This document shows, piece after piece, positions 53,463-58,729 of a DNA stretch of 64,000 nt. This DNA is from Bacteroidota bacterium. Its GTDB lineage: Bacteria > Bacteroidota > Ignavibacteria > Kapaibacteriales > UBA2268. The notes under the pieces are model-generated. The model made no database searches. It had not been told where the DNA came from and worked only from the letters and a program-made list of their open reading frames with translations. The stretch covers positions 124,001 through 188,000 of the forward strand of contig JAJXYC010000013.1 of NCBI GenBank assembly GCA_021780815.1, written 5' to 3'. A program made the translations under genes and the position numbers. Within the stretch, counting starts at the first letter, position 1; each line of letters begins with the position of its first letter.

Positions 53463-54281
53463 TTGAAAAAAATAGCGAATCTGTTAATTTATTTATTTTT
53501 GATAATCATAGCATTGGGAATGATATTTCCTATGTTTTGGATGTTATTGCTATCACTTAAAGAATATCCTGAAAGATATTCAAATTTTATTCATTTAATT
53601 ATATCAAAATTTACATTGCTTAATTACAAAGATGCTTTGAAATCGGATTCTTTTGATATTTATTTTTTCAATTCTTTATTAGTGGCAGTATTTGTAACAC
53701 TCGGTAATGTTTTGTTTTGTATGATGGTTGGATATGCATTAGCAAGAAAAAATTTTAAAGGAAAAGCCATTTTTACCTCGTCAATTCTGGGAGTATTAAT
53801 CATTCCATCACATGTAATTATGATACCGCTATATCGCCTAATGGTAAAATTATCATGGATAAATACATATTGGTCATTGATATTGCCCTGGGTTGTAACT
53901 CCATTTGGAATATTTTTAGTTTGGCAATATTTAAAATCAGTGCCGATTGAGTTAGAGGAAGCGGCAAGAATTGATGGAGCAAGTTTTTGGAAAATTTTTT
54001 TCTTAATTATAATTCCTGTTTCAAGGCCTATATTAACAGTACTTGGTATTTATACTTTTTTAGGTAATTGGAATTCATTTTTATTTCCTTTTTTATTTAC
54101 AAATAGTGAAAGTTATAGGACTTTGCCAGTAGGATTAACTTTTTATTTAGGTAAACAATCAATTGATTGGGGACATTTGATGGCAGGCTCTTCAATTTCT
54201 GCATTGCCGATAATTATTCTTTTTTTAATTTTCCAAAAACAAATTATAAAAGGTTTAATTGCAGGTTCGTTAAAAGAATAG
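53463..54281 (+). CDS. ABC transporter permease, MalG/UgpE type
   Basis: 272 residues with six membrane helices. A TTG start at 53463 keeps the first helix; it lies 8 bases after the dacB stop. The EAA motif reads EEAARIDGASFWKIFF...IP near residue 165. It is the inner-membrane partner of a MalF/UgpA-type permease, and the only such gene in the window is at 26150. No ATPase or binding protein gene is adjacent. The substrate may be a sugar, glycerol-3-phosphate or an oligosaccharide. Confidence 0.87.
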   Translation: MKKIANLLIYLFLIIIALGMIFPMFWMLLLSLKEYPERYSNFIHLIISKFTLLNYKDALKSDSFDIYFFNSLLVAVFVTLGNVLFCMMVGYALARKNFKGKAIFTSSILGVLIIPSHVIMIPLYRLMVKLSWINTYWSLILPWVVTPFGIFLVWQYLKSVPIELEEAARIDGASFWKIFFLIIIPVSRPILTVLGIYTFLGNWNSFLFPFLFTNSESYRTLPVGLTFYLGKQSIDWGHLMAGSSISALPIIILFLIFQKQIIKGLIAGSLKE

Positions 54282-54319: not shown

Positions 54320-55279
54320 ATGGAAAATAAGAAGATTAAAGTACTCATAGTGGATGACCAACCTCTTGTGTTAGATATACTATCTAAAGGTTTGATAAAA
54401 GATGCAGAAATTGATGTTATAGGGACTGCCACAGATGGTTATTTAGCTTTAAATATGATAAACAGAGAATCGCCAGATGTTATTATTCTTGATATGGAAA
54501 TGCCAAGAATGAATGGAATTCAATTCCTGCATCAATTAAATGCTGATAATCCAATTCCAACAATAGTTTTAAGTGCTTTAACAAATGCAGATTCTCAAAT
54601 AACCAAAGATGCTTTTGATGCAGGTGCTGTTGATTTTTTAAAGAAGCCTTCTTCTGGTGCCAAAGGATTGCTTGAATTGATAACACAATTATGGATTAAA
54701 ATAAAAATAGCTGTTACGCAAGATGTTTCATATTTAAAAACGCCATTAAAAGATTACAAACTCCCATCTAATGTGTTAGACAGGAAAGCAAAGACTGATA
54801 ATGTTATACTTGGAATGGGTTCAATGGCAGTAACCGCTAACCCCGAAGAAAATTTGAAGATATTTGCTCTTGGCTCTTGCATTGGATTAGCTTTATTTTG
54901 CCCTTCTAAAAATGTTGTTGGCTTATCGCATGTTGCTTTACCTCTGGCTAAAACAGATTCACAAAAAGCAGTTGATTTACCCGGTTATTTTGGGGACACC
55001 GCTGTTCCTGCATTGCTCAATAAAATGTCTGAATTTGGTTGTACTCAGAATATGATATATGCAAAAATTGCCGGTGGTGCTAAAACCAAAGTGGAACTTG
55101 GTGATTTTTTTAATATCGGTCAAAAAAATGCTATTTCTGTTAAAAGCTCATTGATTAAATACCAAATTAAACTCCTTGCCGAAGATATTGGAGGAGAAAT
55201 TTCTCGTACGGCTATTTTAAAAGGTGGCGAGAAGTTTTTAACCTTACATCACCCGGTTAAAGGGACATGGCAAATTTAA
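54320..55279 (+). CDS. Response regulator with C-terminal CheD domain
   Basis: 319 residues from the ATG at 54320. The receiver has D12-D13, phospho-acceptor D58 (ILDMEMPRMNG) and KKPSSG, very close to CheB receivers. Instead of the methylesterase domain, residues about 155-319 form a CheD glutamine deamidase: ALGSC187-IG, LSH204-VALP (spacing 17 as in characterised CheD), GDTAVPALL, AKIAGGAK, NIGQKNA and LLAEDIGGE. The Thr that lies six residues before the Cys in Thermotoga CheD is Ile here. It may tie phosphorylation to deamidation of chemoreceptors or related proteins. No other che gene is in the window. Confidence 0.88.
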   Translation: MENKKIKVLIVDDQPLVLDILSKGLIKDAEIDVIGTATDGYLALNMINRESPDVIILDMEMPRMNGIQFLHQLNADNPIPTIVLSALTNADSQITKDAFDAGAVDFLKKPSSGAKGLLELITQLWIKIKIAVTQDVSYLKTPLKDYKLPSNVLDRKAKTDNVILGMGSMAVTANPEENLKIFALGSCIGLALFCPSKNVVGLSHVALPLAKTDSQKAVDLPGYFGDTAVPALLNKMSEFGCTQNMIYAKIAGGAKTKVELGDFFNIGQKNAISVKSSLIKYQIKLLAEDIGGEISRTAILKGGEKFLTLHHPVKGTWQI

Positions 55280-55370
55280 ATTTGTTTTTTTCCCCCTTTT
55301 TTTCTTTTTTTTTAAAAATTTTGCCCCTAACTGTAATTTTTTTCTGCTTTATGTGTTATATATATTTAGA

Positions 55371-55961
55371 ATGGCAGAATTTGAAAAATATAGTGACCAA
55401 GAATTAAGTTATCTATTTCTCTCGCAAGATAAAAAGGTAGCAAAAGGATCATTCGATGAGTTTTATCGTCGTCATGCACCTAAATTATATACTTTTTGTT
55501 ATAAGTTATTAAAGGATAAGAACAAAGCGAGAGATGTTTTTCAAGAATCTTTTGTTCATCTTTTTGAAAGGATTGAACAGAGAGGTGAGCCGATAGAAAA
55601 TTTAAGCAGTTATTTATTTAAAATTGCAAAAAATATGATTCTAAATATTCAAAGAAAGAAGGTATTACAAGAAGTGCCAATAAAAGGAGATAGATGGTCA
55701 GTCTTTCAAGAATCGTTAGAAGATAAACAACAAAAAGAATTATTAGATATTGCTATAAATCAATTACCTGAAAATTTAAAAGAAGCGTTAATTATGAAAG
55801 AATACTTAAATTATTCTTATAGCGAAATAAGCGATTTGATGAATATATCCCGTGATTCTGTTGCTGTGATGATTTTTAGAGCAAAAAAGAAATTAAAAGA
55901 TTTGTTAAAACCTATTCTAAATGAATTGGAAATAAAGGAGCAAGATAAATATGGAAGATAA
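55371..55961 (+). CDS. ECF-family RNA polymerase sigma factor
   Basis: 196 residues from the ATG at 55371. Region 2 (EFYRRHAPKLYTFCYKLLKDKNKARDVFQESFVHLF) and region 4 (LPENLKEALIMKEYLNYSYSEISDLMNIS-RDSV) are clear and no region 3 is present. Region 4 ends with AKKKLKDLL. It should direct polymerase to envelope or stress genes when its anti-sigma partner lets go. It overlaps the next gene by 11 bases. Confidence 0.93.
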   Translation: MAEFEKYSDQELSYLFLSQDKKVAKGSFDEFYRRHAPKLYTFCYKLLKDKNKARDVFQESFVHLFERIEQRGEPIENLSSYLFKIAKNMILNIQRKKVLQEVPIKGDRWSVFQESLEDKQQKELLDIAINQLPENLKEALIMKEYLNYSYSEISDLMNISRDSVAVMIFRAKKKLKDLLKPILNELEIKEQDKYGR

Positions 55962-57225
55962 TTATAAAATGGATTATTTAAATAAAATTAACGAATTTCT
56001 CGATGGGGAATTACCTCCTGAGGAAAGCAAAGATTTATTTAATAAACTTGCTGAAAATCCTGAGCTTCAGGAAGAGTTGAGGGGATTCGTTACTTTAAAG
56101 AATATGTTCCATCAAGAATTGCTTGAACCGCCTAAAATTGTGAAAACTAACCTTTATGCAAAATTTAATTTGCAAAGAAGTGCCATCTTTTTATCTATGT
56201 TATATGCAATTGGAACATATTTACGAAAAGCTATTTTAAACCCCGTATTTGCAATTACTATTGTCTCATTGCTTTTATTTACAATGGGGTATTTTATTAA
56301 TCAAAAAGAAAATCCTGTAAAATTTAATGCAACACAAAAACAAGAGGTTATTTCTAATAACAATTTACCAAATAAAGCGATTCAAAATAACAAATTAAAC
56401 AATAATGCGACAAACTTTAATAATAAAATACCTATAATCAGTTCTATTGAAAAAAGTGAAGATAAAAAAGCACCGAAAGTATCAAAAGTATCTAATGTGA
56501 CTAATTTGAACAAGAACAGAAATATTGCTGAATTTAATACAGACAATCAAATTGCAAATGCTTCTTCACAAAATTCAGAAGAAGTAAATTTACAACAAAG
56601 TAATGCACAAAATAATATTCAAATACCCCATAGAACAATAGAACCAAGTTTATTTGTAAGTGATTGGAATTTTAATTTTGAAAATTATAAAAATTCAGTT
56701 TCTATAACAAGTCCCGATTATGATTTGGTCCATTTTCTTGAAAGATTTAATATAGGAATATTTAAATCTAATTCAAAATCAACTATTTCAACTAATCTTG
56801 AACCATTAAGCAATCCGTTACTAAATGACTATAATTTTGAGTTAAGTTATTCAGTGAATGAACATAGTTCATTTTCCCTTGAATTAGGTCAAGAAAATTT
56901 CGTCCAACAATATACAGGAACAATAGATAAATCGCAGGCAAATATTACTCAGGTATATACTGCACAATTTTATGGTTTAGGTTATCAATATAATTTTCCG
57001 GAAGTTCGCAGTTTTATGAATATAAGCCCTTATATTAAAATTTTTGGTGGTGGAACAAACGTCGGTCCATTAGCAAAATTATCTACTGGTTTGTTTTATA
57101 GAGTTAATGAAAAATTAGCTTTGCAACTTGGATTTGAAAACTCTTATTTGTTCTATAATTTCCAGAACAATTGGTTTTCTTCGAGCAAATATGGTTTGAT
57201 ATATGGAGTTCAATTAGGATTTTAA
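55951..57225 (+). CDS. Membrane anti-sigma factor with C-terminal outer-membrane-like domain
   Basis: 424 residues. Residues 9-60 (INEFLDGELPPEESKDL, ENPELQEEL) resemble the helical sigma-binding part of zf-HC2-type anti-sigma factors, without zinc ligands. One membrane helix spans about 98-115. Residues about 118-235 are an Asn/Lys/Gln-rich, disordered linker. Residues about 290-424 alternate aromatic and polar residues in hairpins (NFELSYSVNEHSSFSLELG, AQFYGLGYQYNF, LSTGLFYRVNEKLALQLGF), ending in Phe as outer-membrane barrels do. It overlaps the sigma gene by 11 bases, a sign of paired control. The barrel-like end is inference from pattern. Confidence 0.75.
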   Translation: MEDNYKMDYLNKINEFLDGELPPEESKDLFNKLAENPELQEELRGFVTLKNMFHQELLEPPKIVKTNLYAKFNLQRSAIFLSMLYAIGTYLRKAILNPVFAITIVSLLLFTMGYFINQKENPVKFNATQKQEVISNNNLPNKAIQNNKLNNNATNFNNKIPIISSIEKSEDKKAPKVSKVSNVTNLNKNRNIAEFNTDNQIANASSQNSEEVNLQQSNAQNNIQIPHRTIEPSLFVSDWNFNFENYKNSVSITSPDYDLVHFLERFNIGIFKSNSKSTISTNLEPLSNPLLNDYNFELSYSVNEHSSFSLELGQENFVQQYTGTIDKSQANITQVYTAQFYGLGYQYNFPEVRSFMNISPYIKIFGGGTNVGPLAKLSTGLFYRVNEKLALQLGFENSYLFYNFQNNWFSSSKYGLIYGVQLGF

Positions 57226-57257
57226 TTTACGGGTATGAACTATTAAAAAGATAAAAA

Positions 57258-58019
57258 ATGCACTATTTCAATCATAAAATATTGATAATTATTTTTTCGG
57301 TAAGTTATTTACTAATTTATTCTTGTAGTTCACCGTTAGATGTTCCTGCAAATCGTAATATTGAAATTAAAGATGGACCATACAAAAACCCACAAATTAG
57401 CCTTAATCCTACATTTGTTAATTTTGATTTTGTTCTTCCTGATTCAACAAAATTAATGACAATGACCGTTTCTAACAATTTAACAACAAAAATTCTTATT
57501 ACCGATTATTCTTTATATTTTAATGATAGTTATTTTTTATTATTTAATAAAAATGTTCCATTTGTATTAGATGCAAAAGGAGGTGCAAATTCTACTGTGG
57601 AAATTCAACTTGGATTTAAAGGAATTTCGTCTGGAATTTATCAAGATACATTGTTATTTTCAGGAATATTTTATCCGACAGGTTTACTTGAAGCAAAAGT
57701 TCCATATATTTATGCAAATTCAGTTAATTTAGGGAATATCCCTTTAAACCAAAATAGTGAAGGACAAATTATTATTAATAATTTGAGTGAAAGTTCTGCA
57801 ACTATTTCCAAAATTAGATTTTCAAACTTTTCCAATTATTTTAAATTTAAAAATGGTTTTCCAATAGTAATTCAAAGAAATTCCAAAGATACACTTTCTT
57901 TCATTTTTACTCCTTTGACACAAGGTAAATTTCAAGAGAATTTAACTTTTGAAATTACTACTCAGGCACAAAGGAAACTCGTTGATAGTGTGGCTACGAT
58001 ACAGGCTATCGTGAATTAA
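57258..58019 (+). CDS. Lipoprotein with ASH/DUF1573-like immunoglobulin repeats
   Basis: 253 residues. The signal peptide ends LLIYSC, with the lipidated Cys near residue 23. Two beta-sandwich units follow (ISLNPTFVNFDFVLPDS...MTMTVSNN and VNLGNIPLNQNSEGQIIINNLS) with the pattern of ASH or choice-of-anchor D domains, ending in TLSFIFTPLTQGKFQENL. It is probably exposed in the periplasm or on the surface. It lies 32 bases after the anti-sigma gene and may be its partner or a target of the sigma factor. Confidence 0.72.
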   Translation: MHYFNHKILIIIFSVSYLLIYSCSSPLDVPANRNIEIKDGPYKNPQISLNPTFVNFDFVLPDSTKLMTMTVSNNLTTKILITDYSLYFNDSYFLLFNKNVPFVLDAKGGANSTVEIQLGFKGISSGIYQDTLLFSGIFYPTGLLEAKVPYIYANSVNLGNIPLNQNSEGQIIINNLSESSATISKIRFSNFSNYFKFKNGFPIVIQRNSKDTLSFIFTPLTQGKFQENLTFEITTQAQRKLVDSVATIQAIVN

Positions 58020-58081
58020 TCTACCTCTCAAATTAATACTTTTTTTTCTTTAATCGTCTAAATTTGAAAATAATGTAAAAG

Positions 58082-58729
58082 ATGAAGTTCCAAGAGTTTC
58101 AGGATATGCTATCGTCTGGGGAAGGTGTTACTGTTGAATTCAAACGTAAGTGCAAATCACCAGAGAAAATTGCCAAAGAAATTTGTGCCTTTGCAAATAC
58201 AAAAGGTGGAACTTTATTAGTTGGAATTGATGATGATGCTTCTGTTATGGGAATAAAAAGCGAGAAAAGCGAAATTGATATTGTTGAAAAAGCATGTTCT
58301 TTTTATATTTTTCCTGAAATTTATCCCAAATTTGAAATTTTTGAAATTGAAGGCAAAGATATTCTTTGCGTAATAATTAATGAAGGCAATAAAAAACCAT
58401 ACAAAGCATTAAATTATTACGATGAGCAAGGGAACAAGCATTTTCAAGCATTTATTAGAGTTGGAGAAAATTCAGTTCCTGCAAGTTCTGAAATGACAAG
58501 ATTGTTGAAAAGTCAATCGGACAATAAACCTTTAATATTGAGTATTGGTGATAAAGAAAAGAGACTATTTGAATATCTTGAAAAATATGAGCGTGTTTCG
58601 GTTAAAAATTTTGCTGATTTAGTTAATATATCAAATCGCAGAGCTGAAAGATTGCTTATTAGGCTTGTGAGAGCAGGTGTTTTGCAAATCCATACTGATA
58701 CTCACCACGATTACTTTACTTTGATTTAA
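58082..58729 (+). CDS. AlbA_2 (Schlafen-type) domain protein with winged helix
   Basis: 215 residues. The N-terminal AlbA_2 domain (about 1-125) shows GEGVTVEFKRKCKSPEKIAKEICAFANT-KGGTLLVGIDDD, with the conserved Glu and a glycine loop. The C-terminal 70 residues form a winged helix (LFEYLEKYERVSVKNFADLVNISNRRAERLLIRLV). Such proteins are usually called transcription regulators or ATP-binding proteins. A TAAATTTG -7-like box at 58059-58066 suggests its own promoter. A weak hairpin (58723-58730 with 58741-58748) lies at its end. Confidence 0.82.
   Translation: MKFQEFQDMLSSGEGVTVEFKRKCKSPEKIAKEICAFANTKGGTLLVGIDDDASVMGIKSEKSEIDIVEKACSFYIFPEIYPKFEIFEIEGKDILCVIINEGNKKPYKALNYYDEQGNKHFQAFIRVGENSVPASSEMTRLLKSQSDNKPLILSIGDKEKRLFEYLEKYERVSVKNFADLVNISNRRAERLLIRLVRAGVLQIHTDTHHDYFTLI

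Follow-up and report, generated by a model that had tools for sequence, protein, structure and literature searches.

A receiver–CheD fusion as a predicted response regulator with CheD output in one order of uncultured bacteria

The gene and its domains

The window analysed here is a stretch of DNA of 64,000 nucleotides from the genome of a Bacteroidota bacterium, and the fusion gene, its parts and the permease gene before it lie on its plus strand. At 54320..55279, an open reading frame and its Pfam matches define a gene for a protein of 319 amino acids (aa), in which a receiver is fused to a CheD domain. Translation is taken to start at the ATG at 54320, which matches the equivalent ATG in relatives. 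A longer mechanical reading frame from a TTG at 54167 was rejected, since it overlaps the upstream gene and relatives begin with the ATG equivalent to that at 54320. A sugar-type ABC transporter permease, recognized by Pfam and NCBIfam at 53463..54281, ends 38 bases upstream of the fusion gene, and co-transcription of the two is possible. Permease homologues lie upstream of the fusion in six of the 13 loci compared, the window included (directly upstream in genomes G001, G002, G004, G014 and G020); several of the other loci are cut by contig ends. On the downstream side, at 55353-58729, an ECF-type sigma factor is followed by an unrecognized protein and two more genes, a block that G004 and G018 also have beside the fusion.

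The protein is composed of a CheB-type receiver (residues 6-131; 54335..54712), an interdomain linker (residues 132-160; 54713..54799) and a CheD domain (residues 161-319; 54800..55276). Pfam places Response_reg at residues 8-113 with 86.9 bits, far above the cut-off, and CheD (PF03975) at residues 207-300 with 75.3 bits against a cut-off of 25; no Pfam match to CheB_methylest is present in the fusion protein. In NCBIfam the top match is the CheB N-terminus, followed by CheD equivalogs, all of them below the full-protein cut-offs, so that the N-terminal half is nearest CheB and the C-terminal half nearest CheD. The receiver of the fusion in G002, a genome of the same genus, shares 52% identity with the receiver of the window genome's CheB, encoded on contig C18.

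Alignment of 15 fusions shows no variation at D13, D58, S85 or K109 of the receiver, and the acidic pair D12/D13 is present, D12 being Glu in one relative. The fusion thus carries the acidic pair, phospho-acceptor Asp, Ser/Thr and Lys by which a response regulator is recognized from sequence, and the invariant D58 (54491..54493) is its predicted phosphorylation site. The predicted catalytic residues of the CheD domain, C187 (54878..54880; aligned with T. maritima CheD among others) and H204 (54929..54931), are likewise invariant in these 15 proteins.

Linker length varies among the fusions. Within the family of the window's genome (36 genomes, G000-G035), the KP-to-GxG distance is 56 in nine of the 12 complete fusions and 59-84 in the other three; in five fusions of a second type it ranges from 70 to 120, and the linker there is both long and variable. 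A LPSN-LDR stretch recurs in the linker of most fusions of the window's family, despite the low model confidence in this segment, and might be a docking element.

Predicted structure and active site

AlphaFold2 predicts two domains with confidence (mean pLDDT 91.3) and, between them, a linker of low confidence at residues 145-157. The receiver superposes on the T. maritima CheB receiver (3T8Y_B; Z 23.4, 1.5 Å, 137 residues) and the CheD part on T. maritima CheD (2F9Z_C; Z 26.5, 1.8 Å, 154 residues). Together with the Pfam matches, these superpositions uphold the initial annotation, which had described a CheB-like receiver with CheD in place of the methylesterase. It had also left room for a CheD active site that cannot form; the model predicts a normal CheD fold. 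With a pTM of 0.56, the model gives no firm packing of the two domains, and, given this loose packing and the long, variable linker of the second type, a CheB-like occlusion of the CheD domain by the receiver is hypothetical.

C187 and H204 are separated by 17 positions, which agrees with the annotated spacing: the same distance is found in all 66 CheD rows examined and between Cys27 and His44 of T. maritima CheD (PMC7022378). The replacement of the conserved Thr by Ile was likewise read correctly. The residue equivalent to Thr21 of T. maritima, which is Thr in most CheDs, is I181 (54860..54862) in the window's protein, and alignments show Ile in all 13 fusions from the window's family against Thr in all five of the second type. 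Standalone CheDs have Thr in 44 of 48 cases and V, A, K or S in the remaining four, in a survey that is partly biased because one of its two search patterns fixed I or T at this position; among the Pfam-found standalone CheDs of the phylum sample (n = 10 in the tree), eight have T, one K and one S. Because V, A, K and S are also tolerated in standalone CheDs, the Thr is no absolute criterion for CheD, and I181 weakens the case for full deamidase activity but not the case for CheD homology.

The exchange removes the third residue of the proposed catalytic triad. In NTAN1, which has the same fold, the S69A variant retains about a fifth of the activity and C75A and H92A retain none, and CNF1 is described as using a backbone carbonyl instead of a third side chain (PMC7022378). 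Since replacement of the NTAN1 Ser costs about fivefold activity, I181 is predicted to weaken catalysis, which need not be lost. A more radical reading, which we consider rather unlikely, is that CheD of the Ile lineage has lost meaningful deamidase activity and, as a binding protein, tunes CheA by attaching to receptors under the control of phosphorylation. The consistent Ile in the window's family as opposed to the Thr of the second type would fit such a protein, and in B. subtilis the binding role of CheD is reported to outweigh its deamidase role (PMC3513319), but the invariance of C187 and H204, their constant spacing and the residual activity of NTAN1 S69A, set against the inactive Cys and His variants, all argue for retained catalysis.

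Distribution of the fusion

The sample of the order comprises 123 genomes, of which 25 have CheD. Their 26 matches divide into 23 within frames of at least 320 aa, one cut by a contig end (G005) and two standalone (the second copy of G001, and G465). A receiver was confirmed by alignment in 15 of the 23 long frames, and also in the named loci L064-L071, which partly duplicate genomes of the order sample; the other long frames were assigned by their length. In a wider sample of the phylum, 33 of 395 genomes have CheD and six have it in frames of at least 320 aa, all six belonging to this order. Among the 80 named loci listed of 587 matching stretches, no receiver–CheD fusion was found beyond L064-L071, and the named fusion relatives among the matches listed are Candidatus Kapabacteria, Kapaibacterium, Ignavibacteria (L069) and one Chloroherpeton. 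The longer CheD frames of L135 and L137 (270 aa) and L115 (331 aa) were rejected as fusions, having no receiver match; their extra length may be a start-codon artefact, as these frames overlap the CheB frame. One genome of the same genus as the window's, G001, also has a second, standalone CheD of 167 aa (L030; G001:C377), next to a different CheB; the cluster there also includes a CheA, CheW, CheR and MCP of its own.

Receiver–CheD is a conserved family in one order of uncultured bacteria. An origin in misassembly or misannotation is hardly conceivable: fusion-sized frames number 23 in the 123 genomes, the named contigs come from several assemblies, and the aligned fusions all keep the functional residues of both domains. 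The initial annotation had allowed that many such fusions might already be characterized. Homologues are indeed many within the order, but no paper describing a receiver–CheD fusion was found in the full-text literature covered, which takes in few subscription journals and lies outside the Galperin response-regulator censuses; those censuses, or domain databases, may list the architecture.

Chemosensory genes and genomic context

The window's genome (2.63 Mb, 20 contigs, 99% complete) gave in family searches one MCP (971 aa, contig C8), four CheW-domain, three CheR and two CheB matches, and also a FliG match. A CheA-CheW-CheR-CheB cluster is located on contig C18, beside a PAS hybrid kinase that adjoins its CheB; besides the fusion, the genome thus encodes a CheB that does carry a methylesterase domain. 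The methyl-accepting protein and cheA for which the initial annotation had suggested a search are thus both present. Whole-genome family searches gave no match to CheC or CheX. Among the matches listed, which include two of the four for CheW, MCP, CheR and CheW/CheA lie on contigs other than the window's. These searches and a scan of the neighbours agreed with the earlier observation that no other chemotaxis gene is near the fusion; one CheB-domain gene is on the same contig (C7:76893-77414), about 47 kb before the window. The only MCP found carries Glu-Gln pairs, for example in GATEQAAS and SSNEQAQA, which fit the general consensus of methylation-type motifs. Substrate Gln would therefore be available, and the genome's MCP has candidate sites for deamidation; the pattern used for the hairpin-tip motif gave no match in this MCP.

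Of the 36 genomes in the window's family, 13 carry the fusion (G000, G001, G002, G004, G005, G013, G014, G015, G018, G020, G023, G025 and G026), counting G005, where only the CheD end is on the contig. A C18-type cluster, that is a CheA next to which lie CheW, CheR and CheB, all highly identical to their counterparts in the window's genome, occurs in the same 13 genomes and in none of the 23 others. The contigs of G015 and G018 stop short of the full cluster, and CheA is truncated in G002 and G005 by the fetched stretch or the contig. Over the aligned part, the cluster CheA of the fusion genomes is 49-77% identical to that of the window's genome, compared with 26-43% for the other CheA types fetched. 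Five of the 23 fusion-less genomes have a different cluster type (CheA identity 26-36%) and G012 has a flagellar-type CheA (41%), while the remaining 17 were judged by match lists only. Under random presence, such identical sets have a probability of 4e-10, a value that overstates the case because kinship among the genomes makes the counts phylogenetically non-independent. No match to CheD, MCP, CheW, CheR, CheB or FliG is present in G003, of the same genus, and none to CheD, MCP, CheW or CheB in G034, though sister species of both have the fusion, CheW and MCPs; these genes are thus lost together. Besides the window's genome, the family has 12 fusion genomes, and ten of them gave MCPs near that of the window's genome (50-69% identity in the compared part); G005 and G020 each gave one fetched MCP of another type (38% identity).

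In the three genomes of sister family f7 that were examined (G041, G049 and G056), the genes for CheA, MCP, CheR, CheB and the fusion follow each other in a row, CheA of G056 being cut by the contig start. FliG gave no match in these three genomes, so the chemosensory pathway there probably drives no flagellum. The order CheR-CheB-fusion is also found in L070. At L069:7056-9053 the fusion stands directly after cheR with no cheB between them, and receiver–CheD may there be in CheB's place. The fusion gene of the window's family lies apart from the cluster, and shared expression is therefore not required; its solitary position in the window suggests that it was moved later.

From this isolation the initial annotation had suggested a target other than a chemoreceptor. 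A CheD part that deamidates something else would suit a gene placed away from che genes and behind an ABC permease homologue in six of 13 loci, but we regard this as very improbable, because the fusion keeps company with the C18-type cluster (13 of 13 genomes against 0 of 23) and lies inside the cluster, directly after cheB, in f7. The window's genome has CheA, CheW, CheR, CheB and FliG, together with an MCP bearing candidate Gln sites.

The identity of the kinase is a separate question. A hybrid histidine kinase with PAS domains and two receivers is encoded directly upstream of the fusion in G023 (L032:9105-13424), and a similar receiver-bearing frame of 1422 aa precedes the fusion at L066:1-4269, so another kinase could feed it. 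Phosphorylation by a kinase other than the C18-type CheA, whether a hybrid histidine kinase or a flagellar CheA, would link that pathway to the receptors. Receiver signatures by themselves do not name a kinase, and the PAS hybrid kinase beside CheB on C18 would suit this possibility, but we judge it unlikely given the CheB-type receiver, the full co-occurrence with the C18-type cluster and the gene order in f7. A conserved neighbour kinase in the window's family was considered and rejected: of the genes of 1400-1439 aa near several fusions, those of G001, G002 and G020 form one family whose two scanned members (G002 and G020) are subtilase-like, and the G023 gene is the only hybrid kinase among them.

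Origin of the fusion

Outside the order, CheD is, in the loci surveyed, a separate protein of about 160 aa. Of 84 standalone CheD loci, 40 have the gene immediately behind that for CheB; by the test used, the other 44 are not directly behind CheB. CheA-CheW-CheR-CheB-CheD clusters are common there, for instance in Desulfuromonadales and others. The CheD parts of 18 fusions form one clade in the CheD tree (support 100/99), and in the receiver trees the fusion receivers fall among CheB receivers. A first receiver tree of 65 rows set the f7 receivers apart from those of the window's family; in a second, from which ten of the 65 rows had been dropped (five CheBs of another cluster type, one divergent CheB and four CheY-like proteins), 15 fusion receivers tentatively group on one side of a branch (93/73). 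The simplest and most likely account is a single event, in which a cheD directly behind cheB would have gained a receiver of the CheB type; in the window's family the fusion would later have moved away from the cluster.

Proposed function

The fusion is, in our assessment, probably a response regulator with CheD output that arose from a cheB-adjacent cheD, is phosphorylated by CheA and tunes access to receptors. A sensory CheA, presumably that of C18, would phosphorylate D58, and phosphorylation would alter the access of the tethered CheD domain to chemoreceptors. Receiver–CheD would in this way couple kinase activity back to receptor adaptation, in parallel to CheB and CheR. The earlier proposal that the fusion puts deamidation under phosphorylation control gains in plausibility from these features. 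To our knowledge, CheD regulation is known mainly via CheC and CheY-P, and control of CheD in CheC-less bacteria is poorly understood. This natural fusion points to a way in which CheA could act on CheD directly, and it offers a single protein in which phosphorylation control of CheD can be tested, and the natural Thr and Ile versions in sister families make the question of enzyme versus binding protein directly testable.

In B. subtilis, CheC has an about sevenfold higher affinity for CheD in the presence of CheY-P, which draws CheD off the receptors. A Met-Phe pair of CheD (M101/F102) contacts CheC; several CheD-bearing bacteria without CheC exist, and the CheDs of CheC-less species are also described as lacking this pair (PMC3513319). 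By alignment, K255-T256 (55082..55087) of the fusion occupy the place of the Met-Phe pair of B. subtilis and T. maritima CheD. CheC-dependent control was rejected for the window's genome, which has no CheC or CheX match, though other fusion genomes have CheC-like (G005, G013 and G014) or weak CheX-like matches (G005, G013 and G025). As CheC was not found and the contact residues on CheD are changed, the receiver in the same chain could take the place of CheC, and receiver–CheD would do in one chain what CheC and CheY-P do for the separate CheD of B. subtilis. A fuller scheme, which we advance tentatively and with less confidence than the reading of a CheA-phosphorylated regulator, has CheA driving two sister effectors with related receivers, CheB and receiver–CheD, in self-contained replacement of the CheC/CheY-P/CheD loop, the Ile lineage being a switched, catalytically weakened receptor modulator. 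One kinase would in this scheme govern two distinct chemistries, demethylation by CheB and deamidation or binding by CheD. Through the fusion, CheD tuning of environmental sensors could be set directly by the sensory kinase.

Comparison with known systems

Each part of the protein is already known, and the rationale for combining them is clear. With the CheDs of T. maritima (2F9Z_C) and B. subtilis, the fusion shares the fold, the Cys/His pair with its spacing and the genomic tie to chemosensory genes; it differs from them in its receiver, in the Ile for Thr of the window's family, in the missing CheC-contact Met-Phe and in a genome with no CheC match. Like CheB, it has an N-terminal CheB-type receiver followed by a receptor-modifying enzyme, and it is encoded beside cheB in f7, but its output is CheD, of the cysteine hydrolase fold, instead of a methylesterase, and the genome has a separate CheB. 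The CheC-CheD-CheY-P loop of B. subtilis resembles the scheme proposed here in that kinase output would control the action of CheD on receptors, whereas here CheC has no match and the receiver is part of the same chain. CheV, a CheW-like domain with a receiver (PMC3513319), is similar in joining a receiver to another component of chemosensory adaptation; its partner domain is a CheW-like coupling domain and not CheD, and it is a different protein with the receiver on the other part.
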